A stretch of DNA of 64,000 nucleotides, from NCBI RefSeq assembly GCF_014697025.1, contig NZ_JACJRC010000011.1:62001-126000 (forward strand), in the 5' to 3' direction. Positions within the stretch are counted from its first letter, which is position 1; every line of letters begins with the position of its first letter. The stretch comes from Alkalinema sp. FACHB-956. Lineage in GTDB: Bacteria; Cyanobacteriota; Cyanobacteriia; Leptolyngbyales; Leptolyngbyaceae. The notes beneath the pieces were generated by a model. It was not told the DNA's origin, made no database searches, and worked only from the letters and a program-made list of their open reading frames with translations. The position numbers were made by a program, and so were the translations under genes. Below, piece after piece: positions 9,193-63,486 of this stretch.

Positions 9193-11514
9193 ATGATTCA
9201 TCAATCCAAATCCCATGAAAGCGCGATCGGACATGTCACAGGCAAGGCAGTGTATACCGACGAACAACGGCCTCCCGTCGGAATGTTATCACTCTATCCC
9301 GTGATGGCTCCCCATGCCCATGCGAGAATCACAACTATTAATCTTAGTGGTGCAGAAAAGGTTGATGGTTACGTTACAGTAGTCACTGCATCGGATATTC
9401 CTGGAATTAATAACACAGGAGTCATTCTAGCGGATGAAATTCTATTACCCACCGAAGAAATTAGTTATTGGGGACAGGCAGTGCTGTGGGTTGTGGCTGA
9501 GACAGATATTGCGGCTCAACGGGCTGCGGAGATCATTCAAGTTGAATATGAACCCTTGCCTGCCATTCTCTCGATCGCCGATGCCATTGCTGCCGATCGC
9601 TTCCATGGCCAACCTACCCAAATTAGTCGTGGGGCGGTCGAAACGGCGCTAGCTCAGTCCGACCATCGTTTAACCGGAGCATTAGAGATCCAAGGTCAGG
9701 ATCACTTTTACTTGGAAACCCACACCAGTTGGGTGATTCCCGATGGCGAAGGGCATTTTCAAGTCTATTCCTCCACACAACATCCCACGGAAACCCAGGC
9801 GATCGTAGCGCGGGTGTTGGGCATTGCCAAAAATCAAGTGGTGGTGACTTGTTTGCGGATGGGCGGTGGCTTTGGGGGCAAGGAAACCCAGGCCAATCCC
9901 TTTGCGGCAGTGGCCGCGATCGCAGCTTACAAAACCGGGCAGCCCGTGCGGGTCAAGCTGAAACGGGAACAGGACATGATTCTCACCGGAAAACGCCATG
10001 CCTTCCTGGGACAGTATGAGGTCGGATTTACGGCAGAGGGGCAGATTACAGCACTGGCGGTCAAGCTCTACGCCGATGGGGGCTGGAGTTTGGATCTGTC
10101 GCCTCCGGTGCTGTTGCGGGCGATGGTGCACGTGGATAACGCCTACTATATTCCCCATCTGACAGTGCAGGGCTGGATTGCCAACACCCATAAGGTCTCC
10201 AACACGGCGTTTCGGGGCTTTGGCGGGCCGCAGGGAATGGTGGTGATTGAGGAGGTGATCGATCGGGTTGCTCGGACACTCCAGTTACCGCCGGAGGAGG
10301 TTCGGGAACGCAATTTCTATCGGGGTTCCGGGGAAAGGAATACCACCCATTACGGGCAAGAGATTGGGGATAATCGCCTCGATCGGGTCTGGCAGGAATT
10401 ACTAGATCGATCGAACTTTTCCCAGCGTCGATCGGAAATTGCTCAATTCAATCACACTAGTGTTGATAAAAAGCGAGGCTTAGCCATCACGCCTGTAAAA
10501 TTTGGAATTTCCTTTAATAAAGTGCAATATAATCAGGCAGGTGCTTTCGTTCTCATTTACACCGATGGTAGTATTCAGTTAAACCACGGTGGTACTGAGA
10601 TGGGGCAAGGCTTGCATACTAAAATGCTACAGGTAGCCGCAAAATCCCTAGGGGTCAGTCTTCAGCGGTTTCGCATGATGCCCACCAGTACGGATAAGGT
10701 ACCCAATACCTCAGCCACCGCTGCATCCAGTGGATCGGATTTGAATGGCCAAGCGGTTAAAGACGCCTGTGAAACCTTGAAGGCTCGCTTAAAACCGATC
10801 GCGGCTCGTTTGTTAGATTTACCCGAGGATGCAACCTTAGAGTTTGCCGAGGATTGGATTTATTACACGGAAGATAACGCACGAGACAACACACGAAAAA
10901 TCACCTTTGAAGCAGTTGTGCAAAAAGCCTACGACGATCGAGTTAGCCTATCTGCAACGGGCTACTATCGTACACCCACTATTTTCTGGAATCCGGAAAC
11001 CGGCAAAGGCAATCCCTTTTACTATTTCGCCTATGGTGCGGCAGTGAGTGAAGTCGAAGTTGATGGCTTAACGGGCATGTTTAAGCTGCGGCAAGTGGAC
11101 ATTGTCCATGATGTGGGCGAGTCACTGAATCCGTTAATCGATCGGGGGCAAATTGAGGGGGGATTTGTGCAGGGAATGGGTTGGCTGACGATGGAGGAGT
11201 TGGTCTGGGACGATCGGGGCAGTTTGAGAACCCATGCGCCCAGCACCTATAAGATTCCAACGATTCGCGAAGTTCCAGAAAATTTCAACGTCCATCTGTT
11301 GCAACGAGCAGCGCAGGAGGGTGTGATCTATGGCAGTAAGGCCGTGGGAGAACCGCCGCTGATGCTGGCCATTTCGGTGCGAGAGGCGATTCGGGAAGCG
11401 ATCGCGGCCTTTGGTCACTCTCCTACCAGGGTAGCCCTAGCCTCTCCTGCCACACCAGAGAAAATTCTAACTGCGATCGAGCAAATCACAGCAGAGGTTG
11501 AGATTGTCAGTTAA
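9193..11514 (+). CDS. xdhB: Xanthine dehydrogenase molybdenum-binding subunit
   Basis: Catalytic subunit of about 773 residues carrying the molybdopterin cofactor. Visible motifs are GGGFGGKE (about residue 223) and FRGFGGPQ (about 340) for cofactor binding, and GSKAVGEPP (about 716) with the catalytic glutamate. Length fits the family. The open frame extends to a TTG at 9154 inside xdhA, but ATG 9193 is preceded by GGGGGAGG, which also overlaps the xdhA stop, so translation is likely coupled. It sits between xdhA and xdhC in one operon and competes for the same Mo supply as the nif genes nearby. Confidence 0.93.
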   Translation: MIHQSKSHESAIGHVTGKAVYTDEQRPPVGMLSLYPVMAPHAHARITTINLSGAEKVDGYVTVVTASDIPGINNTGVILADEILLPTEEISYWGQAVLWVVAETDIAAQRAAEIIQVEYEPLPAILSIADAIAADRFHGQPTQISRGAVETALAQSDHRLTGALEIQGQDHFYLETHTSWVIPDGEGHFQVYSSTQHPTETQAIVARVLGIAKNQVVVTCLRMGGGFGGKETQANPFAAVAAIAAYKTGQPVRVKLKREQDMILTGKRHAFLGQYEVGFTAEGQITALAVKLYADGGWSLDLSPPVLLRAMVHVDNAYYIPHLTVQGWIANTHKVSNTAFRGFGGPQGMVVIEEVIDRVARTLQLPPEEVRERNFYRGSGERNTTHYGQEIGDNRLDRVWQELLDRSNFSQRRSEIAQFNHTSVDKKRGLAITPVKFGISFNKVQYNQAGAFVLIYTDGSIQLNHGGTEMGQGLHTKMLQVAAKSLGVSLQRFRMMPTSTDKVPNTSATAASSGSDLNGQAVKDACETLKARLKPIAARLLDLPEDATLEFAEDWIYYTEDNARDNTRKITFEAVVQKAYDDRVSLSATGYYRTPTIFWNPETGKGNPFYYFAYGAAVSEVEVDGLTGMFKLRQVDIVHDVGESLNPLIDRGQIEGGFVQGMGWLTMEELVWDDRGSLRTHAPSTYKIPTIREVPENFNVHLLQRAAQEGVIYGSKAVGEPPLMLAISVREAIREAIAAFGHSPTRVALASPATPEKILTAIEQITAEVEIVS

Positions 11515-45565: not shown

Positions 45566-46213
45566 AGGAATCCGCTCGAATGCTAGATGTATGTGGATTT
45601 CTAGGCGATTATAGTCGCAACTATGGCAACGATCGCAAATTTTAAGTTAAAAAATTGATTTTTTTAATGGATGGAAGGGGCGAGGGGAGCGGATGACAGC
45701 CATTGGGCCCGATCGACCCGGATCCGAAAAGAATTATTTAGGATTACTAAAAGCCTTATCCTACAAGCGTTTCAGGGATTTTTTGCACTGGGGTAGAGCC
45801 AGCAATGGAAGCCAAACGCCTCTAAAGACTGTCCTCATAGGTATTTCAGCTTATTTTCCAGCAGATTTACGGGGTCGAAGATTTTCCCCAGGATTTTCTT
45901 TGAAATACAATATACTACATTTTGAAGTGCAAAATCACAGATCTTCATTACAATGGGTAAGACAATCATCCGAGCAGATGATTTTGGTAGATCTTTCGTT
46001 CCCTCGTGTGCCTTCCCCCGTGTGCGTTCCCTCGTCTTAATGAGATCGCGATTCGATCGCAAACAAATGGGTCTCATTGCAAACAAATAGGTCTCATTGC
46101 AAACAAATTAGTCCAATTGCAAGCAAATTAGTCTAATTACAAACAAATTGGGGTGAAATTCCCCTATTTCCCTTCATTCAGCTTTCGTTTACTTAATTTT
46201 TCCTCTATTCACT
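45566..46213. other. Gene-free region between HU and the ABC transporter
   Basis: About 650 bases. The part next to HU is AT-rich (TTTTAAGTTAAAAAATTGAT) and probably holds the HU promoter. The middle (45690-46040) has open frames on both strands without protein features. The right end is the 20-bp tandem repeat described separately. Confidence 0.5.
46059..46152. repeat. 20-bp tandem repeat, about 4.7 copies
   Basis: GCAAACAAATGGGTCTCATT and close variants at 46059, 46079, 46099, 46119 and a partial copy at 46139, 60 bases upstream of the ABC transporter start. Confidence 0.88.
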
Positions 46214-48299: not shown

Positions 48300-48500
48300 T
48301 GTAGTTGCGAAGGTGATGATCCCCCTAAATCCCCCTTATTAAGAGGGGGACTTTGAGGATATTTTCCTAAGTCCTCTTTTGCATAGAAAACTTTGAAGAT
48401 ATTTTTTCTGGTTCCCCCTTTTTTCTTGGCGTAGCCTCTCCGGAGGAGATAGGGGGGTTAGGGATCGAATGTATCGCAATAATCAATCAATTCAGTATTA
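48300..48500. repeat. MITE-like palindromic repeat upstream of the SDR gene
   Basis: Contains GATCCCCCTAAATCCCCC, AGAGGGGGACTTTGA, GGTTCCCCCTTTTTT, GATAGGGGGGTTAGGGATC and the right-end ATCAATCAATTCAGTATTA shared with the element at 58895-59044. It fills most of the gene-free stretch 48166-48586. Confidence 0.75.
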
Positions 48501-49457: not shown

Positions 49458-49571
49458 TCGATCCCCCCTAGGCCGCCTTACCGAGCCGATCCCCCCTCAC
49501 CCCCCTTAATAAGGGGGGAACCGGAAAAATATCTTCAAAGTCCCCCTTTTTAAAGGGGATTTAGGGGGATC
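49458..49571. repeat. Palindromic interspersed repeat between SDR and GMC genes
   Basis: GATCCCCCCTAGGCCG, CCCCCCTTAATAAGGGGGG, AACCGGAAAAATATCTTCAA, AGTCCCCCTTTTTAAAGGGG and GATTTAGGGGGATCC; ends with the inverted form of its own start, so it can fold into a long hairpin and may terminate transcription. Confidence 0.75.
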
Positions 49572-49664: not shown

Positions 49665-51224
49665 ATGAATCACTACGATATTATTATTATTGGAACGGGT
49701 GCGGGTGGTGGAACCCTGGCCTATGCCCTGGCACCGACGGGGAAACGGATTTTGTTGCTCGATCGGGGGTCTCGGATTCCTAATGAGGCCAGTAATTGGA
49801 ATCCCAAGGAAATTTATATTGATGGGAAATATCAAACTGTGGAATCGTGGACGAAAATGCCACGGGAAACGGTGGAACCGGCACTGTACCATCGGGTAGG
49901 CGGTAATACGAAGGTCTATGGTGGGGCGCTGTTGCGGATGCGTCCGGAGGATTTTGGGATGGTGCTGCATCCGGATGGGGTTTCTCCGGCTTGGTGTCTC
50001 GACTATGAGGAGTTGGAACCCTATTACACGCAGGCGGAACGGTTATATCGGGTGCATGGCCAGCGGGGGATTGATCCGACGGAACCGCCAACGACAGCGG
50101 ACTATCCAGCTCCAGCGCTGCCCCATGCCGATCGCATTGCCCAAGTAGCCCAGCAGTTGCGCGAGCAGGGGTTGCAGCCGTTTCCGTTGCCGATGGCGAT
50201 CGATTATCAACCGGAAGCGGCTAGGACTTGCATCCTGTGCGGCACCTGTGATGGCTATCCCTGCCAGATTAATCAGAAGGCGGATGCGCAGATTTGCTGT
50301 GTGGAGCCTGCACTGCGCTATGACAATGTGACGCTGCTGGAAGGGGCGAAGGTGGAGCGGTTGCGGACGAATGCGGCGGGGACGCAGGTGACGGGGGTGG
50401 AGGTGTTGCGGGAGGCTGCGGGGGAGATGGTGCGGGAACGGTTCTCGGGGGATATTGTGGTGGTATCCTGTGGGGCGGTGAATTCGGCAGCGTTGTTGTT
50501 GCAGTCGGCGAGTGATGCCCATCCCAATGGCTTAGGCAATCGATCGGGGTGGGTGGGGCGTAATTTTATGCGTCACAATTTGAGTAAGTTGTATGCGATC
50601 GGGGTTGCGGAAAATCCGACGGTGTTTCAGAAGACGTTGGGGATTAATGATTTTTATCGGGGGACGGCGGAGATTCCCTATCCGTTGGGGCATGTGCATT
50701 TGATGGGGAAGCACAGTTGGGAGATGATGCGTCCGGATTTGCCGCAGGTTGTGCCGCAGGGTGTATTGCAATGGATGGCGAAACATTCGATCGATTGGTG
50801 GGCGCAAAGTGAGGATTTGCCGGATGGGGATAATCGGATCTGGGTCGATCGACAGGGAAAGATCCAGGTGCGGTATCAGCCGAATAATCTCAAGGCCCAC
50901 AGGCAGTTGAAGAGAAAGTTTAAGGCGATTTTACGGGAAATTGGTTTTCCGTTAGTTTTGGATGTGACGGTACCGTTTAAGATTTTGAATCACCAGGTGG
51001 GGACTTGTCGGTTTGGGGATGATCCGGAGAGCAGTGTGCTGAATCGGGATTGTCGCAGCCATGGGGTGGATAATTTGTATGTGGTGGATGCGAGTTTTTT
51101 CCCGTCGAGTGCAGCGGTGAATCCTTCGCTGACGATTATGGCGAATGCGTTACGGGTGGCGGAGCATTTGAAGCAGCGGTTGGGGGCTGCGGGGGAAGTG
51201 GGGGAGGTGTTGTCGGGGAGGTAA
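49665..51224 (+). CDS. GMC family oxidoreductase
   Basis: A 519-residue FAD enzyme oxidising an alcohol or sugar; substrate unknown. FAD-binding GTGAGGGTLAYALAPTGKRI at residues 9-28, HRVGGNTKVYGGALLRMRP (about 75-93), an unusual Cys-rich stretch CILCGTCDGYPCQINQKADA (about 187), and the C-terminal FAD/active-site region HQVGTCRFGDDPESSVLN and DASFFPSSAAVNPSLTIMA. The C-GTC motif is common in bacterial GMC members. It is preceded by a repeat element, so is probably monocistronic. Confidence 0.88.
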   Translation: MNHYDIIIIGTGAGGGTLAYALAPTGKRILLLDRGSRIPNEASNWNPKEIYIDGKYQTVESWTKMPRETVEPALYHRVGGNTKVYGGALLRMRPEDFGMVLHPDGVSPAWCLDYEELEPYYTQAERLYRVHGQRGIDPTEPPTTADYPAPALPHADRIAQVAQQLREQGLQPFPLPMAIDYQPEAARTCILCGTCDGYPCQINQKADAQICCVEPALRYDNVTLLEGAKVERLRTNAAGTQVTGVEVLREAAGEMVRERFSGDIVVVSCGAVNSAALLLQSASDAHPNGLGNRSGWVGRNFMRHNLSKLYAIGVAENPTVFQKTLGINDFYRGTAEIPYPLGHVHLMGKHSWEMMRPDLPQVVPQGVLQWMAKHSIDWWAQSEDLPDGDNRIWVDRQGKIQVRYQPNNLKAHRQLKRKFKAILREIGFPLVLDVTVPFKILNHQVGTCRFGDDPESSVLNRDCRSHGVDNLYVVDASFFPSSAAVNPSLTIMANALRVAEHLKQRLGAAGEVGEVLSGR

Positions 51225-51371
51225 GGCCAGTTCTGGGGAGGGACGATCGGTGAAAATTGGGAATACTTCGATCGGATAGATCGGATACGGGGATCGGATG
51301 TAGTCGTTTCTGGAGGGGTATCGTGCTCTCGATCGTTGCGCTACTGGAGAAGACCCGCGATCGCCCAGCAT

Positions 51372-51407
51372 GTATTCATTCAATGGGGTTCCCCAGGGAG
51401 TCAGGAC
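51372..51407 (+). repeat. Isolated CRISPR-repeat-like sequence
   Basis: Aligned without gaps to the 36-nt repeat of the array at 60054, 29 of 36 positions agree. The block CATTCAATGGGGTTCCCCAG (51377-51396) differs at only one position from the array repeat. The hairpin TCCCCA/TGGGGA of the array repeat is partly lost (GGGAGTCAGG at its end). Confidence 0.55.
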
Positions 51408-51443
51408 AGACAAGTGCACTCATTACAGACAAGTGCACTCATT
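51406..51443. repeat. 19-bp direct duplication
   Basis: ACAGACAAGTGCACTCATT at 51406 and 51425, immediately after the CRISPR-like sequence. Confidence 0.85.
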
Positions 51444-51566
51444 GATGAATTAACCAGGGAATGATTGAGAACAATCTATAATATTCTCGCCCTGCTTAAA
51501 ATTTTGTTAGGGCTTACTTAGTCATGGGTACTCTAGAAAATATGGATGTACATGGCAGGGCTACCC

Positions 51567-52472
51567 ATGAAGTTTCTTCGCTCATACGCGCTTGGTCTGT
51601 TTTCCCTGCTTATCACACTTGGGTTAAGCAGTTGTACCCTTCAGCCGTCTGCCACTCAGGCTCCCAAACCTTCGCCATCACCAGTTGCCCTGCGTATTGG
51701 TGTTCAGCCGACCTACAACAAAGCAGATCAAGAAGCAATGATTAAGCCGCTAGATGCCCACCTAGAGAAGGTATTAGGGCAGCAGGTTGATTTTATCATT
51801 GCCAAGGACTATCGAGACGGAGTGGATATGTTGGTGGATGGACGAGCGAATGCTTTCTATGGTGGAGTTGTCTCCTACTTTGAAGCGTTGGAACGGGGCG
51901 CAAACGTTATCCCCCTGGTAGCACCCATTGATGCAGATACGGTTCGTCCCTGGTATCGTTCCTGCTTTATTGTGGCAGTCAATAGCCCGATCAAAACCTT
52001 GAAGGACTTGAAGGGTAAGCGTGTGGCTTTTGTCAACCGCTCCTCCACATCGGGTTATCTGATTCCTGTCGCAGCACTCAAACAAGAGGGAATCGATCCA
52101 GACCGGAATTTTGCTCAAGTTATGTTTGGTGGAACCCATACAGAAACAGAGGCGTTATTAGCAACAAACCAAGTTGATGCCATTGCAACTAATTTGTCTA
52201 CCTATGATCAATGGAAGAAAGAGGGTAAGGCTGAAAATGCTCGGGTAATTTGGCAGTCAGACCCGGTACCCCATGCTCCGGTCATGGTTTCTCGTGATAT
52301 GCCACCGGAGTTGTTGGAGAAACTCACGGAAGCTTTTTTGACGACACCTGTGGGAATTCAAGACTTGATGGGTGCTAAAAGTGCCGGATATACCTTGGTA
52401 GAACCCGAGGATTACAACTCCATTGGGGAATTACGCCGTCAACTCAACTTATCGAGTGAGATCAGCCAATGA
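51567..52472 (+). CDS. PhnD-like phosphate/phosphonate-type binding lipoprotein
   Basis: A 301-residue periplasmic binding protein. Lipoprotein signal with LGLSSC near residue 22, then IGVQPTYNKADQEAMIKPL, FYGGVVSYFEALERGANVIP, LKGKRVAFVNRSSTSGYLIP and LATNQVDAIATN, matching the PhnD/PtxB family of phosphonate, phosphite or related ligands. No transporter permease or ATPase gene is near. Instead its stop overlaps the start of a histidine kinase by four bases, so it more likely serves as the sensor input of that kinase. Ligand unknown. Confidence 0.85.
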   Translation: MKFLRSYALGLFSLLITLGLSSCTLQPSATQAPKPSPSPVALRIGVQPTYNKADQEAMIKPLDAHLEKVLGQQVDFIIAKDYRDGVDMLVDGRANAFYGGVVSYFEALERGANVIPLVAPIDADTVRPWYRSCFIVAVNSPIKTLKDLKGKRVAFVNRSSTSGYLIPVAALKQEGIDPDRNFAQVMFGGTHTETEALLATNQVDAIATNLSTYDQWKKEGKAENARVIWQSDPVPHAPVMVSRDMPPELLEKLTEAFLTTPVGIQDLMGAKSAGYTLVEPEDYNSIGELRRQLNLSSEISQ

Positions 52473-54694
52473 AAATATCGACGAAGTTTATAGGTCTTTC
52501 GGCAGCATTGGTGGGAGCTATCTCGCTGATTTCTGGGGGGAGTACCCTCTGGCGTAATCATATCCAAGAAAGCACTCACGCAAGGTATACCCAAGCCAAG
52601 CGACGAATTCAAGCAGCCACCCTAGTGCAAAATCGCCTGTATGCAGAAATTATCGAACTCAAGGATCATATTTTGTTCCGCAATATAGATGAAGAAAAGG
52701 AAGATGAGTTTGACGTAGGGATTGAAGAGTCACTCGATTTGTTGGAATCAGTGGTATCGACGCCGGAGATTCAGTATATCCGTGCTCGCCAGGAAATTTT
52801 TGAGGAACTCGAAGAAAATGTAATTGAGGGAATTAACAAGGGGACTGCTATAACGCCAGTCGAAATCAAAGCTGATTTTCGGGCCATCAATGGCTTTAAG
52901 CGAGATATTGACTTTTTTTTAGATGAGTTAACTGAGCAGGCCCAACAGCAGGCGCAGGAAGCCGAACAGGAACTCGAGCGGGTAGACGCGATCGCTATGC
53001 AGCTTTCCTATACCTCGATTGTTTTGCTGATACTGATGGTTTTAGGCATCTTTTGGCTAATTCTGCGGCCCATGATCCAATCGCTTCAGCAACTTCAGGA
53101 AGGGGCTTACGAAATTGGCCGGGGCAATTTATCCCATCGGATGGAAATCGAGACCCAAGATGAAATTGAGCAGCTATCCCAAGCCTTTAACCAAATGGCC
53201 GAAGAGTTGGGGATCTCTCAGGCGACCGTACAGCAAAAATTAGAGGAAGTGGAAATTGCTCGAGCTGCTGCCGAAACTGCTAACCGAGCTAAGAGCCAGT
53301 TTCTCGCCAATATGAACCACGAGTTGAGAACGCCCCTCAACGGCATTCTCGGCTATGCCCAAATTCTCCAGCGTGACCCGGCTACCACTGAGAAACAGAT
53401 GAAGGGCTTAAGGGTCGTTTATCAATGTGCCTCCCATCTGCTGATGCTGATCAACGATATTCTGGATTTATCGAAGCTGGAAGCGCAAAAAATGGATCTT
53501 TATCCCCAGGATTTCCATTTTGCTAATTTTCTGTCTTCTACAGCGGATATCTGTCGCGTCCGAGCCGAACAAAAAGGTGTGGAGTTTCACTATCAACCGG
53601 GGGCAAACCTTCCAACTGCTGTGCATGCAGATGATAAGCGACTACGCCAAGTGCTGTTGAATCTCCTCAGCAACGCTATCAAATTTACTGACTTCGGTAC
53701 TGTCAGTTTCCGCATTGAGCGGGTAGACACCTCTGATGGTTTGGATTCTGCTTCCACAGGCCAAACTCAACGAGTTCGCTTCCAAGTCAAAGATTCTGGC
53801 ATTGGCATTGCCCCCGAAAAATTGGCGACCATCTTCCTGCCGTTTGAGCAGGCTGGGAAACGAGAGCGCAACTCCGAAGGGACTGGACTAGGGTTGGCTA
53901 TTAGTCAACAAATCATTGAGAAAATGGACAGTACCATTTACGTTGAAAGTGAACTGGAAAAAGGCAGTTGTTTCTGGTTTGAAGTGGATTTGCCCCTCGC
54001 TACGGACTGGCAGATGGGGGATGCAATCGCTCAACAAAAGGTGATTGGCTACCAGGGCGATCGCCGCAAAATTCTGGTGATTGACGATCGCGAAGAAAAT
54101 CGTCTGGTTGCTATCAATATGTTAGAACCATTGGGCTTTAACATGATTGAAGCTGCCGATGGGCAAACGGCATTAGATCTCGTTCTGCAAATGCATCCCG
54201 ATCTGATTATTACCGATGTTCACATGGCGGTGATGGATGGTTTAGAGATGACCCGTCGCCTCCGCCAACTGCCCGACTTCACCAGTACCCCCATCATTGC
54301 CTCGCCTGCGACTCTGTCTCAAGTCGATATGCAAGCGAGTATTGAGGCAGGATGTACCAGCTTTTTCCCAAAACCTCTAGAATTCAACAGCTTACTGGCT
54401 GAGATCCAACGCCTATTGAACTTACAGTGGACTTATGAAGTTCTGCCAACTGCTGATCCTGCCACCCAGGACGAGGTTCAGGAGCAGCACACAGCCCTCC
54501 TTTTTCCACCGCCAGAAGAACTCAGCGCCCTCTACACTGCTGCTCAGAGTGGATTTATGGGCGACGTGCAACAGGAAGCGCAGCGGATCAAGACATTAGC
54601 GCCTAAATATATACCCCTCGCTAATCGCATCCTGGAACTGAGTCAACAATTTGATGATGAAGGCATTATGAAATTGCTTGAACCTTGGATGTAG
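52469..54694 (+). CDS. Hybrid sensor histidine kinase coupled to the PhnD-like protein
   Basis: A 741-residue membrane kinase. Helix 1 (about 8-26), a periplasmic helical domain (about 30-183), helix 2 (about 187-205), HAMP domain (about 206-258), coiled coil, HisKA with phosphorylated His in NHELRTPLNGILGYAQIL (about 283), ATPase with NLLSNAIKF, DSGIGI and GTGLGLAIS, and a receiver domain with LVIDDREENR and the phosphoacceptor D of ITDVHMAVMDG (about 581). A C-terminal 90-residue extension may be a degenerate Hpt. ATGA overlap with the binding-protein gene means translational coupling. Confidence 0.92.
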   Translation: MKISTKFIGLSAALVGAISLISGGSTLWRNHIQESTHARYTQAKRRIQAATLVQNRLYAEIIELKDHILFRNIDEEKEDEFDVGIEESLDLLESVVSTPEIQYIRARQEIFEELEENVIEGINKGTAITPVEIKADFRAINGFKRDIDFFLDELTEQAQQQAQEAEQELERVDAIAMQLSYTSIVLLILMVLGIFWLILRPMIQSLQQLQEGAYEIGRGNLSHRMEIETQDEIEQLSQAFNQMAEELGISQATVQQKLEEVEIARAAAETANRAKSQFLANMNHELRTPLNGILGYAQILQRDPATTEKQMKGLRVVYQCASHLLMLINDILDLSKLEAQKMDLYPQDFHFANFLSSTADICRVRAEQKGVEFHYQPGANLPTAVHADDKRLRQVLLNLLSNAIKFTDFGTVSFRIERVDTSDGLDSASTGQTQRVRFQVKDSGIGIAPEKLATIFLPFEQAGKRERNSEGTGLGLAISQQIIEKMDSTIYVESELEKGSCFWFEVDLPLATDWQMGDAIAQQKVIGYQGDRRKILVIDDREENRLVAINMLEPLGFNMIEAADGQTALDLVLQMHPDLIITDVHMAVMDGLEMTRRLRQLPDFTSTPIIASPATLSQVDMQASIEAGCTSFFPKPLEFNSLLAEIQRLLNLQWTYEVLPTADPATQDEVQEQHTALLFPPPEELSALYTAAQSGFMGDVQQEAQRIKTLAPKYIPLANRILELSQQFDDEGIMKLLEPWM

Positions 54695-56403: not shown

Positions 56404-58776
56404 ATGAAAATCCCCCTCTCAATCCACAGGGTTGTAGTCCAGAAAACAAGTCCTTTGTTGTACGTCTCTCTATCCTTAGGGATCTGGATTTTAGGACCTA
56501 TTTTGCAAGAGTTCCAACAGCGACCTGCCGTAGCCCAACCTGCTCCCCCAAACAGAACCTCACTGACAGCGGCCTGTCGAGAGGAGGGATATGCTTATAG
56601 TTTTAGTCAGTGGCAGCGGCTGTATGTCATGGACAGCTTTGCCAACCCAGAGGACGTTGCCCAAATCCTTAAGCTCATACAACGAGCTCAAGGAGATCCA
56701 CGACTGAGCCAAGTCGCGATCGATCGTCTCACCCCAATCTCTAATTTAGAGTCACCCTCACGGCTGCTAGAGCTGATTGACAACACCCCATCGACCCAGC
56801 AAGCCCAAGTGCTACCGCTAGTTGAACAGTTTGTCGTTCTTGCCCGCGCGCTACCCCCTGGCTACAACTACGCCCAAAGCCGCGCGCTCATCGCGGCAGC
56901 CCAAGCCTATTCTCAGTTAGATCAGCCATCCCGTAGCGCCCCCCTTCTACAGCAGGCCCGTCAAACCCTTGGGGGGATTGCCATACCGTTGCTCAAAGCT
57001 GAGGTGCAATGGCGCTGGGGGCAAGCCTGGGCCGACCTGGGGCAGCCGCAGCAGCAAAGTGCCAGTTTAGCGGCGATCTCCACCATCCTCAAAACGCCAT
57101 CTCGCACCACCACCCCCGAGCAAGATCAGCGTCTGAGCCAGATCCTTGAGCTGTTTGTGCAGCGCCAACAGATCCCCCAAGCAGAAGCCATTGCTCGGGC
57201 CATTCCAGCCTTGCCCCAGCGAATCCAGGAACAGTTTCGGGTGGCAACAGCCTATTTACGGGCCAAGCAGGTTAAACCCGCTCTGGCTCTGTTCAATCAG
57301 ACCGTTGCGTTACTTCGTCAGAATTCTCGTCCAGCCAGTTCTGAATTAGGTGCGATTTCAACCCAAGGTATTATCCAGTTTGTCCAAGCAGGCGGTGTGA
57401 CCACGGCGACTCAAGCCATGATGCAATTGCCGAATTTAACGGCGCTCCAGCGGGCACAAACTTGGTTGGCGATCGCCGGAGAAGCCCGCCAACAAAAGCG
57501 TCCCAAGGAAGCCGCTCCAGCGCTTGCCCAGCTCATCGCCGCTGGACGCGAGGGCCAACAGCAGAAGTTTAACAATCCCTATGGGTTTAACGGCCTAGGC
57601 CAAAATCAGTGGGGGCATAGCCTCTATCGATTGAGCCAGTCTGAGGGCTATCAACTGGAGCTAAACCAGTTAATTCAGCAGCTCCAGATTCAGTCAGAAG
57701 CTGCCGAGTTTTTGATCGCGATGGCTGTACAAGCCCAACAGTTTGACCAAGCCCAACAACTGATACCGAGTCCCTTGAACGTTAGAAATGAAGCGGGCAC
57801 GTTTGATGTACAAGAAATGTGGCGGCTATGGGTTGCAGTTGCCGCTGCCGAGGCAGGAAAACCGCAGCAGCTCATCGCCCTGGGTGAGCAGGCAAACAGA
57901 AAATTAAAGACGGAAGACGCACAAGTCATTACCTTTTCGGCCCCAAATGAATTTGGCTCTCGTTCCATTAGACGGGACCCTCCATTTGTGGAAGTCATCG
58001 ATTTCTCGATTGCCTCGCAGCAGCCAGTAGAGACTGTCTTCGTAGCAATTCAGGTCTTACAGCAGCAAGGTCAATCCGCTGCGGCCCAATCTCTAACCCA
58101 GGTTCTAGCAGAGCACCTCACGATGATGGCAGAACAGCTTTTGACCCCAGGATCCAAGGTGCAGCTAGCCTATAACCAGTCGCCTTTAGCCTGGATCGGA
58201 AATGTAGAGCAGTTCCTGCGCTTCTATGATCAGGCTAAAAGCGCCGATCGTCTGTCCGCATTGCAGGTCACTTATCTTCAACAAATCACAGATCCAGCGT
58301 TGCGGGCTCAAGAAATGGCTAAACAATTTTTTCTCAATACCTCGGCACCTGATTTGGCAGCAGAGATTTCCCGCTTTGGCACCCAGGCACAAGCGTTAGG
58401 CATTGCCAACCAGCCCAGCATTGCCCAACGCATTGTTGCAGCGGCTATTGTCACAGGCCAACCAGAACTTGCTGCGGATTGGGAAGCCCAAGCGGAACTA
58501 TCGGCCCAAGCACAGGCAGACCTCTGGTTCCAGCGGAGTTACTCCTTAGCCAAGGGTACTGATTCATCCACTCTGTTCAGTGTCCTAGATAAGGCCCTGA
58601 GACTTTATCAGCAAGCCCCCACAACCAAGCCACTCGATAATGTGCGAGCACAACAATGGATTGACATCTATCTGCGCTTTGGCAATGTAGAGAAAGCGCG
58701 ACAGATCATTGATTTGATGAGTGATACAGAGATGGCAAGGCAGTGGACTATTCGGCTCAATTGCCTCGATATGTAG
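56404..58776 (+). CDS. Exported helical-repeat protein of unknown function
   Basis: A 790-residue protein with a signal peptide (about 12-45, likely cut after PAVA). The mature part is almost all helical, Gln/Ala-rich, and built from TPR-like units (for example YNYAQSRALIAAAQAYSQLD, VQWRWGQAWADLGQPQQQSA, LQRAQTWLAIAGEARQQKRP). It may be a periplasmic scaffold. I know of no characterised relative. It is flanked on both sides by the 98-bp duplicated sequence and gene remnants. Confidence 0.75.
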   Translation: MKIPLSIHRVVVQKTSPLLYVSLSLGIWILGPILQEFQQRPAVAQPAPPNRTSLTAACREEGYAYSFSQWQRLYVMDSFANPEDVAQILKLIQRAQGDPRLSQVAIDRLTPISNLESPSRLLELIDNTPSTQQAQVLPLVEQFVVLARALPPGYNYAQSRALIAAAQAYSQLDQPSRSAPLLQQARQTLGGIAIPLLKAEVQWRWGQAWADLGQPQQQSASLAAISTILKTPSRTTTPEQDQRLSQILELFVQRQQIPQAEAIARAIPALPQRIQEQFRVATAYLRAKQVKPALALFNQTVALLRQNSRPASSELGAISTQGIIQFVQAGGVTTATQAMMQLPNLTALQRAQTWLAIAGEARQQKRPKEAAPALAQLIAAGREGQQQKFNNPYGFNGLGQNQWGHSLYRLSQSEGYQLELNQLIQQLQIQSEAAEFLIAMAVQAQQFDQAQQLIPSPLNVRNEAGTFDVQEMWRLWVAVAAAEAGKPQQLIALGEQANRKLKTEDAQVITFSAPNEFGSRSIRRDPPFVEVIDFSIASQQPVETVFVAIQVLQQQGQSAAAQSLTQVLAEHLTMMAEQLLTPGSKVQLAYNQSPLAWIGNVEQFLRFYDQAKSADRLSALQVTYLQQITDPALRAQEMAKQFFLNTSAPDLAAEISRFGTQAQALGIANQPSIAQRIVAAAIVTGQPELAADWEAQAELSAQAQADLWFQRSYSLAKGTDSSTLFSVLDKALRLYQQAPTTKPLDNVRAQQWIDIYLRFGNVEKARQIIDLMSDTEMARQWTIRLNCLDM

Positions 58777-58894: not shown

Positions 58895-59044
58895 ATACCA
58901 AATCAACCTGTGATTGCAACCCATGACGATCCCCCTAAATCCCCCTTAAAAAGGGGGACTTTGAAAGAATTTGACTAAATTCCCCCCTTTTTAAGGGGGG
59001 CTAGGGGGGATCGGATCTATAGCATTGATAAATCAATTTGGTAT
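58895..59044. mobile_element. MITE-like element with short terminal inverted repeats
   Basis: A 150-bp unit bounded by ATACCAAAT (58895-58903) and its inverse ATTTGGTAT (59036-59044). Inside are GTGATTGCAACCCATGAC, GATCCCCCTAAATCCCCC, TTAAAAAGGGGGACTTTGAA, AATTTGACTAAATTCCCCC and GGGGGGCTAGGGGGGATCGG. It has no ORF. Relatives are at 14641, 21125 and 48300. It is the best-preserved copy in the window. Confidence 0.75.
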
Positions 59045-59967: not shown

Positions 59968-60040
59968 AGGGGGAACCGGAAAGATAGAGAAAATGGATGA
60001 TATTGGTTCAAAAATCAACCATTCTCTCAAGGTTCCCCCT
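59968..60040. repeat. Inverted repeat beside the CRISPR array
   Basis: AGGGGGAACC (59968-59977) and GGTTCCCCCT (60031-60040) are perfect inverted arms 53 bases apart, with a further partial pairing GAGAAAATGG/CCATTCTCTC inside. It belongs to the same interspersed family that ends in GGTTCCCCC and abuts the first CRISPR repeat by 13 bases. Confidence 0.6.
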
Positions 60041-60053
60041 GATTAAGGCTACT

Positions 60054-63000
60054 GTTTCCATTGGGTTCCCCAGCGAGTGGGGAGTGGGGATAGAATCAAA
60101 TATTCCAAGAAACGCTACACTCAGTTTCCATTCAATTGGGTTCCCCAGCGAGTGGGGAGACTGCTGCCAGACTTGCGCGGGGAAGCATCCCCCAGAGGTT
60201 TCCATTCAATTGGGTTCCCCAGCGAGTGGGGAGACTCCACGTCATCAACTTTTCCTACAACATTCGGCCCGTGTTTCCATTCAATTGGGTTCCCCAGCGA
60301 GTGGGGAGAAAATGGTTTGTAGAGTCTGACATTCAAACCGCCTATTAGTTTCCATTCAATTGGGTTCCCCAGCGAGTGGGGAGCATACGATTTTAATGCA
60401 TGCCCGATCGCTTATCCATCAGTCAAGTTTCCATTCAATTGGGTTCCCCAGCGAGTGGGGAGAAAAAGACCGTGCCACATTGATCGCTAGAGCGTTCACG
60501 TTTCCATTCAATTGGGTTCCCCAGCGAGTGGGGAGCTGAGCTAGGCTTCAAGGTGCCTGAGGTGAAGTACGATAAGTTTCCATTCAATTGGGTTCCCCAG
60601 CGAGTGGGGAGTACATTCGGGTTGACGACATGAAAGCTGTGGACTTACGCGAGATTCGTTTGTTTCCATTCAATTGGGTTCCCCAGCGAGTGGGGAGAGA
60701 GGCTAAGCTGCTCTATGCCTACCACTCCACAAGCCAAAAAAAGTTTCCATTCAATTGGGTTCCCCAGCGAGTGGGGAGTAAATAAAGACACTCAGGATAA
60801 TTGAGCAACGCTTTGTTTCCATTCAATTGGGTTCCCCAGCGAGTGGGGAGAAGAATGGGGTGAACTATCGAGCTACATTCATTAAAGCAGGTGAGTTTCC
60901 ATTCAATTAGGTTCCCCAGCGAGTGGGGAGTATTATTTACGATTCCTCATACAGTTTGCGATGGATCGTAAGTTTCCATTCAATTGGGTTCCCCAGCGAG
61001 TGGGGAGACAATGCAATGGCCGTAGTCTGCGAACCGTGGGAGTTACACCAGTTTCCATTCAATTGGGTTCCCCAGCGAGTGGGGAGCTACAGATACACCT
61101 CAGGTAATAAAGCTGGGCAATTTGTGGCGTTTCCATTCAATTGGGTTCCCCAGCGAGTGGGGAGTAGGTAATCCTTATGATAGATTTACTGAAGATGCTT
61201 TGCGTAGTTTCCATTCAATTGGGTTCCCCAGCGAGTGGGGAGAATGGAGTACACAATGTCTGAACCTCTTGTTATTAGTTTCCATTCAATTGGGTTCCCC
61301 AGCGAGTGGGGAGTTATCAAATGTGCTGCGCTCATCCACAAGGCGAAAAAGCCGTTTTTGCAAGTTTCCATTCAATTGGGTTCCCCAGCGAGTGGGGAGA
61401 TGGGAGATCGACACCCAAGACCATCAAGAAACCTTGTCCTGCGTGGTTTCCATTCAATTGGGTTCCCCAGCGAGTGGGGAGCATGAAGACAATCACAGGC
61501 ATCATCACCGTTTCCAAGGTTTCCATTCAATTGGGTTCCCCAGCGAGTGGGGAGGTAACAGACTTCACGGGCAAGATGATTAATATGCCTGCGGGTTTCC
61601 ATTCAATTGGGTTCCCCAGCGAGTGGGGAGCTGATTGAAAAGGGTAAAACGGTTGAGAAAGAGATTGAGCAAGCGATCGAGTTTCCATTCAATTGGGTTC
61701 CCCAGCGAGTGGGGAGATCGAGACTGGTTCGCAAGAGCCGCGAACCTAGTTTCCATTCAATTGGGTTCCCCAGCGAGTGGGGAGCGTTCGGTATCTCTAG
61801 ACTTACTAAACTGTACCGACCTGTTTCCATTCAATTGGGTTCCCCAGCGAGTGGGGAGTAAACTAATTTCTAACAATGCCTTGAGAGTTCTTGAGGCATT
61901 CAAGTTTCCATTCAATTGGGTTCCCCAGCGAGTGGGGAGATGAGGCTTAAAGATTTGAGGGCGTTGATGTCGATGTTTCCATTCAATTGGGTTCCCCAGC
62001 GAGTGGGGAGAACGGAACAGAGAACGAAAAAGGATTGACTGCTACGTTTCCATTCAATTGGGTTCCCCAGCGAGTGGGGAGGCGTATAAATCCCCTGAAT
62101 TGGAGGAAGGGTTTTCGTTTCCATTCAATTGGGTTCCCCAGCGAGTGGGGAGGCATCAATCAAGGCACTGATAAGCCAGTTCGCTGGACAGTACAAGTTT
62201 CCATTCAATTGGGTTCCCCAGCGAGTGGGGAGGGAAAAACTAAGGGTTAGTTTTTCCCATAGCTGGTTTCCATTCAATTGGGTTCCCCAGCGAGTGAGGA
62301 GTTTGTCAGCTTAGCTGGCAGTCTAAGACCGCGTGTTTTGTTTCCATTCAATTGGGTTCCCCAGCGAGTGGGGAGACTGCCAGTGCTCAAGCATTGAGTA
62401 GTGCTGATAAGCATTTGTTTCCATTCAATTGGGTTCCCCAGCGAGTGGGGAGAGGATATAAAATATGCCAACTGAATTAAATCCTACAAAGTTTCCATTC
62501 AATTGGGTTCCCCAGCGAGTGGGGAGGGCATATCTTAGATCTTTTGCCGTCGATTGACACAGCATGTTTCCATTCAATTGGGTTCCCCAGCGAGTGGGGA
62601 GCATAACGGGGATCATAACTCTCCTTTAGAGATTTACAGGGAGTTTCCATTCAATTGGGTTCCCCAGCGAGTGGGGAGAAACTTACCTATTTTAACTGAT
62701 GCTACTTTATATCTAAGTAGGTTTCCATTCAATTGGGTTCCCCAGCGAGTGGGGAGTAGTTATGCTAAACTAAGCAATCATTTAGCACCATTAAAGTTTC
62801 CATTCAATTGGGTTCCCCAGCGAGTGGGGAGTGATTTCATCGTCACCAACTTGGGGCAATACATCATGTTTCCATTCAATTGGGTTCCCCAGCGAGTGGG
62901 GAGTTAATTCAAATCTACCGAAAGGAGCACAAGGTTAGGTTTCCATTCAATTGGGTTCCCCAGCGAGTGGGGAGAAAAATCCTAGTTCAGGACGTAGATA

Positions 63001-63346
63001 AGATACACGTTTCCATTCAATTGGGTTCCCCAGCGAGTGGGGAGCTAACCAATGTCTAAAGCATCACAAAAACGCTATGCGTTTCCATTCAATTGGGTTC
63101 CCCAGCGAGTGGGGAGGCCAGGAACCCCGGTAGATGTGAAGCAATACCGATCGACATGGTTTCCATTCAATTGGGTTCCCCAGCGAGTGGGGAGAAACAT
63201 GTGATGAATGCTAATTCGGTCGTGCTAGCAACTGCTCAGTTTCCATTCAATTGATTTCCCCAGTGAGTGGGGGTAGATACTACGGATATTACCCTAGGTC
63301 AGCCTATCTAGTTTTCATTCAATTGGGTTCCCCAGCGAGTGGGGAG
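60054..63346. CRISPR. CRISPR array, 44 repeats and 43 spacers
   Basis: 36-nt repeat starting GTTTCCATTCAATTGGG and ending CCCCAGCGAGTGGGGAG, with hairpin TCCCCA-GCGAG-TGGGGA. I count 44 repeats. The first (60054-60084) lacks 5 nt; the copies at 60895 and 62266 have one change each; 63239-63274 has several changes; the last (63311-63346) has one. Spacers range from 32 to 50 nt (50 nt at 60612, 61314 and 61631), broad as in type III systems. No cas gene lies within the window. Direction is uncertain: decay at the right end suggests a leader on the left, whereas the reverse strand ends in GGAAAC, like many crRNA 5' handles. Confidence 0.98.
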
Positions 63347-63486
63347 GAGAGCTGGATTAAACCTAATACCTACAGGGCTTTCAACTCCCATTATAAATCC
63401 CCCTTAAGGAATCGTGAACCAAACTGCTACACTGAATCGCACAGACTAACAGGAAAAACCAGCGATCGCCCAAAGGAGTCTTTTCC

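Follow-up and report, generated by a model that had tools for sequence, protein, structure and literature searches.

We analysed a stretch of 64,000 nucleotides from Alkalinema sp. FACHB-956 (hereafter the window, with positions counted from its first base), which lies on a contig that we call C11. Between a gene for a GMC-type oxidoreductase and a gene for a PhnD-like substrate-binding protein lies a solitary element, GTATTCATTCAATGGGGTTCCCCAGGGAGTCAGGAC, that resembles the direct repeat of a CRISPR array further along the window (Table 1). A prior annotation made from the letters alone (the sequence-only reading) had put the start of the PhnD-like gene 160 bases downstream of this element; the distance fits the second in-frame ATG, which is plausibly the true start, whereas the open frame itself opens with the ATG at 51546. 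Of the seven proteins encoded between 46214 and 58776, all but one have a metabolic, transport or signalling role; the exception, a 790-amino-acid open frame (56404-58776), was matchless at E <= 0.001 when compared with Pfam, PADLOC, PHROGs and NCBIfam. Other repetitive sequence in this part of the window includes a 20-base unit (ATTGCAAACAAATTAGTCTC-like) that is repeated head to tail about five times at 46056-46155, just upstream of an ABC transporter gene. There are also inverted-repeat elements built on GATCCCCCTAAATCCCCCTT at 48318-48423 and 49508-49571, and in a third place recognised by eye at 58928-59012, which resemble a small mobile-element family.

Table 1. Features of the window that surround the lone repeat or belong to its repeat family.
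Feature	Position in window	Strand	Remarks
GMC-type oxidoreductase, upstream neighbour of lone repeat	49665-51224	+	
Lone degenerate CRISPR direct repeat, type III-B-linked family	51372-51407	- (presumed)	29/36 to array repeat; contig coordinates C11:113372-113407
Exact contiguous tandem duplication, 19 bp, ACAGACAAGTGCACTCATT x2	51406-51443		From the sequence; no second genomic place found
PhnD-like substrate-binding protein, downstream neighbour of lone repeat	51546-52472	+	Second in-frame ATG at 51567
Hybrid sensor histidine kinase	52469-54694	+	Overlaps end of PhnD-like gene
CRISPR array	60049-63346	-	43 repeats with at most 5 mismatches to consensus; a further, truncated repeat at 60049
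Leader-like sequence common to C11 and C5 arrays	63356-63392		Local score 36; reached by 0/300 shuffles

Counting repeats with at most 5 mismatches to the consensus of this family, the genome has 52: 43 on C11, 7 on C5 and 2 on C42. Those of the C11 array are nearly uniform (39 of 43 perfect). The minus strand of the array repeat forms a stem-loop and ends in ATGGAAAC; together with the sequence shared between the C11 array and its partner at the start of contig C5, this suggests that the leader lies on the right and that the array is transcribed from the minus strand. Next to last on the presumed leader side, the repeat at 63239-63274 carries 5 mismatches, unusual for the leader-near end, and still folds into the usual stem (-8.0 kcal/mol, z -0.61). 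Just past the window follow homologues of Csx1, Cmr6, Cmr5, Cmr4, Cmr3 and Cas10b along with a WYL-type gene, and the locus beside the C11 array is of type III-B (Cmr). A type I-D locus on contig C54 adjoins an array with a different repeat and contains the single cas1 found in the genome, so the type III-B locus itself seems to lack this gene. The nearest cas-type gene found, that for Csx1, extends from C11:126099, 12.7 kb from the lone copy, and the named genes in between are the PhnD-like gene and signalling genes, accompanied by the one matchless frame.

Arrays of this family also have damaged edges. Truncated or deleted repeats occur at 60049-60084, at C42:36814-36830 (L012 1647-1663), where the repeat breaks off after GTTTCCATTCAATTGGG, and at C5 128-141 (L054). 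Such edges suggest that type III-B-linked arrays are subject to fragmentation in this organism. Two spacers of different arrays, at 62153-62196 and at L053 12700-12739 (C42), form a diverged pair, GCATCAATCAAGGCACTGATAAGCCAGTTCGCTGGACAGTACAA and CAATCAAGGCACTGATAAACCAGTTCGCTGGGCAATACAA; they end alike, differ in length and were possibly acquired separately from related invaders. No sharing of 15 bases was found between the 49 spacers read and the stretches of the organism's own genome that were scanned.

Aligned at equal length and without gaps to the array repeat, GTTTCCATTCAATTGGGTTCCCCAGCGAGTGGGGAG, the lone copy matches at 29 of 36 positions and differs at 7. A 20-base block at 51377-51396 (CATTCAATGGGGTTCCCCAG) contains one difference, and the block CATTCAATNGGGTTCCCCAG is common to the lone copy and the direct repeats on C11, C5 and C42. 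With equal base use and both strands counted, a match this good is expected 5e-7 times per 60 kb and 5e-5 times per 6.16-Mb genome. When 400 dinucleotide shuffles of the repeat were scanned over positions 1-60040 of the window, none found a site within 10 mismatches, the best being 11 mismatches (25/36) for one shuffle. The real repeat, scanned against 110,153 bases of own-genome DNA from which the lone copy and the arrays had been removed, reached 14 mismatches at best (22/36). The lone copy thus shows homology to the type III-B-linked direct repeat well above chance. The sequence-only reading had claimed the ungapped 29-of-36 match, the block with a single difference, a likeness far beyond chance and a distance of 8.6 kb to the array, and all four hold, the array beginning with the truncated repeat at 60049 and its first full repeat at 60124.

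It had also proposed a search of the genome for further isolated repeats, and in our searches the lone copy was the only one found. A query with the array unit returned it at E 1.7e-4 as the sole isolated site; matches at E 0.17 and above were truncated array-edge repeats (C42:36814, C5:128) and weak matches, and the reversed unit yielded nothing in the same genome at E <= 0.1. The lone copy with its flanks (51300-51480) matched, besides itself, only array repeats on C11, C5 and C42 below E 0.04. Elsewhere in the window, outside the array region 60040-63400, there was no other match within 11 mismatches of the array repeat. The notion of a dispersed intergenic repeat family, the finding that had been named in advance as decisive against the observation, was rejected, since the genome searches gave only array repeats and the lone copy. 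The observation at 51372-51407 is therefore confirmed as real.

We examined the flanks of the lone copy for remnants of an array. A search with gaps allowed, extending 250 bases to the left and to the right, revealed no second repeat, in agreement with the earlier claim; the site therefore falls short of the two or more regularly spaced repeats with unique spacers that make a CRISPR array. A faint candidate near 51454 (CCAGGGA) was rejected because 44% of shuffles scored equally well. Nor was a leader found beside the lone copy: the right flank does not resemble the sequence that the C11 and C5 arrays have in common (fractions of shuffles as good, 0.82 and 0.98), and a leader common to the lone copy and the arrays was rejected on this test. 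Neither flank resembles an array flank, and no spacer was recognised. On the right, the lone copy runs into the duplication of ACAGACAAGTGCACTCATT, which is exact and contiguous as previously described; its copies abut at 51406-51424 and 51425-51443, and the first begins within the last two bases of the repeat. We take this tandem to be a separate small duplication.

The processing stem of the lone copy is damaged in part. Read in the crRNA sense, this Cas6-type stem can still form 5 of 6 pairs, including one wobble, and is interrupted by an internal G-G mismatch. The fold predicted as best for the lone copy is another hairpin, a weak one at -5.6 kcal/mol (z +0.27), compared with -11.2 kcal/mol and z -2.55 for the array repeat. 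The 5' handle is altered to ATGAATAC from ATGGAAAC. With the left flank as the would-be spacer, a 10-base seed had no matches in the window, the type III stretch (L055) or the type I-D contig (L052). An 8-base seed had 3, 0 and 2 matches in these sequences, against 1.95, 0.43 and 0.41 expected, and 9-base seed counts were small and near expectation. No match to the sigma-70 promoter consensus or to a terminator was present in 51200-51600, and no Rfam family matched the lone copy.

To place the lone copy among related genomes, we searched 42 genomes of the order, own included, with the array unit; 13 were matched at E <= 0.001 and 21 at E <= 0.1, as against 0 and 1 for a reversed control unit. 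Of 30 loci retrieved, those designated L070, L072, L073 and L075, from four genomes, contain a single repeat, so that at least 4 of the 41 other genomes hold one. By single we mean that a stretch reaching about 1.5 kb to either side (for L075, 0.77 kb in one direction) shows no other repeat within 11 mismatches; the term does not apply genome-wide, and these four genomes have 3, 3, 2 and 17 matches in total. The single repeats are of the same family as the window copy and likewise have no second repeat in the retrieved stretch, whereas their gene contexts differ. The L070 repeat, which differs from the array repeat at 2 positions, is flanked by a WYL/Csx1-type gene (PADLOC E 2e-46) on one side and an IS701-like frame on the other, and is plausibly an array cut down to one repeat. 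The L073 repeat lies about 1 kb from an IS630-like frame; both transposase matches fall below the curated cut-off. Two repeats are present at L071, and at L091 a contig end cuts the locus beside a second, partial repeat. All six stem pairs are kept in L070, L072 and L073, so these relatives' single repeats are not as worn as the window copy, and one of six is kept in L075.

A genome-collection pattern covering both repeat forms found one record besides the organism's own genome, L063 (genome G037). The repeat there ends in GGGGAC, the lone copy in GAC, and the lone copy has 6 mismatches to it versus 7 to its own array, a weak, one-base hint that it may have descended from an older or sister repeat. 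The site itself was not recovered elsewhere. When 51060-51700 was searched against 77 genomes, own included (26 matched, with at most the 7 best candidates scored per genome), the listed matches in the 25 of 76 relatives were all confined to query bases 1-150, which belong to the oxidoreductase gene. The PhnD-like gene was matched in 7 of 77 genomes, own included, and no repeat within 11 mismatches occurred at the six other PhnD-like loci. A blastn comparison of 51001-52500 with the two closest relatives, L058 included, found the PhnD-like gene and left the stretch upstream unmatched. When the lone copy and its short flanks were compared with 242 genomes of the class (the organism's own among them), the best three candidates being scored per genome, only the own genome matched at E <= 0.001. 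As no relative with the same gene order around the lone copy was found, a former array is not directly visible.

We consider it probable that the lone copy is the decayed remnant of a type III-B-linked array, most likely without function. An array, or part of one, would once have lain at this site and would have been lost by deletion, for example through recombination between repeats, or by rearrangement; one repeat would have survived and then gathered substitutions, and most likely does nothing now. The significant match, the decay, the lack of a leader or second repeat and the comparable single repeats in relatives all support this origin, the first of three that the sequence-only reading had offered.

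An unlikely alternative is that the end of a spacer and one repeat were copied or moved to the site, and that no array ever stood there. The six bases to the left of the lone copy, CAGCAT, are identical to the end of one present spacer, that before the repeat at 62566, and these six with the first 30 bases of the repeat match array positions 62560-62595 at 32 of 36 (89%). That nothing else of an array is left at the site would also fit a copied fragment. However, over the 52 sites a six-base identity of this kind has a chance probability of 1.3% on that side and 2.5% for either side, and beyond CAGCAT the likeness fades to a chance-like 13 of 36. The 7 substitutions, set against a nearly uniform array, moreover point to a great age.

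It is distinctly improbable that the lone copy is a functional ectopic repeat giving rise to a crRNA-like RNA, in the manner of CreA or scaRNA, that regulates the PhnD-like or another gene. According to one account (PMC9458426), known functional ectopic repeats are also degenerate, and CreTA modules, which have one or two, share with our lone copy a degenerate repeat outside the array. The stem of the lone copy, moreover, is damaged rather than gone. On the other hand, CreTA is described there as physically linked to its CRISPR-Cas locus, with its RNA processed, whereas the lone copy stands 12.7 kb from the nearest cas-type gene found and has a mismatched stem. The changed handle, the lack of a 10-base seed match in the window and in the type III and type I-D stretches and the absence of sigma-70 promoter, terminator and Rfam matches likewise speak against a regulator of the PhnD-like gene, which had been among the earlier suggestions and finds no support. 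A related and still more remote idea is that a minus-strand RNA of a kept ectopic repeat is bound or cut by the type III-B-linked repeat-processing nuclease, tying the PhnD-like/kinase operon to CRISPR; such an RNA would be antisense to, and upstream of, that operon. We know of no case of a nuclease-bound ectopic repeat for a type III-B-linked repeat in cyanobacteria.

We give very little credence to the idea that the lone copy is a mobile element's solitary repeat unit with the role of an RNA anti-CRISPR (Racr). A study of Racrs (PMC10651486) describes them as solitary mimics of a repeat, in most cases one of the host's subtype; its authors chose candidates whose fold matched and which had a promoter no more than 250 bp upstream. 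A solitary repeat of the host's own family is what we observe. By contrast, Racrs are carried on mobile elements with the repeat fold kept, and at the lone copy neither such carriage nor a matching fold or nearby sigma-70 promoter was found. Phage and plasmid records contained no similar DNA, and the exact core pattern occurred in 0 stretches of viral contigs. PHROGs searches with the seven flanking proteins gave matches such as an ABC transporter, FabG, a kinase and unnamed families, none a named structural phage protein. A phage, prophage or plasmid setting was thus not found in these records or among these proteins. A second pattern did find one viral contig, L095, with a small array. This array (11165-11419) is of the type III-B-linked repeat family and is accompanied, about 520 bases away, by an inverted copy with 4 mismatches at 10613-10648.

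Resemblance by chance might be argued from the seven mismatches and from a G/C run that makes up part of the match, and is scarcely credible with 0 of 400 shuffles within 10 mismatches and an empty reversed search of the own genome. Cas1-Cas2 inserts a spacer, not a repeat, and duplicates the target around a spacer-sized insert. Off-site integration by this enzyme, the last of the earlier suggestions, can practically be dismissed: the short exact duplication does touch the lone repeat and might be read as its scar, but its copies abut with no insert between them, and the only cas1 found belongs to a type I-D locus with another repeat.

The lone copy is thus real but ordinary, one more decayed repeat of a kind of which some relatives hold similar stragglers, and by itself such a relic matters little. 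It does call for caution in pipelines that would report any isolated repeat they meet as a solitary repeat unit, an RNA anti-CRISPR candidate or a crRNA-like regulator. Together with the single repeats in at least 4 of 41 relatives, it suggests that single repeats remain from arrays of the type III-B-linked family, both here and in those genomes.
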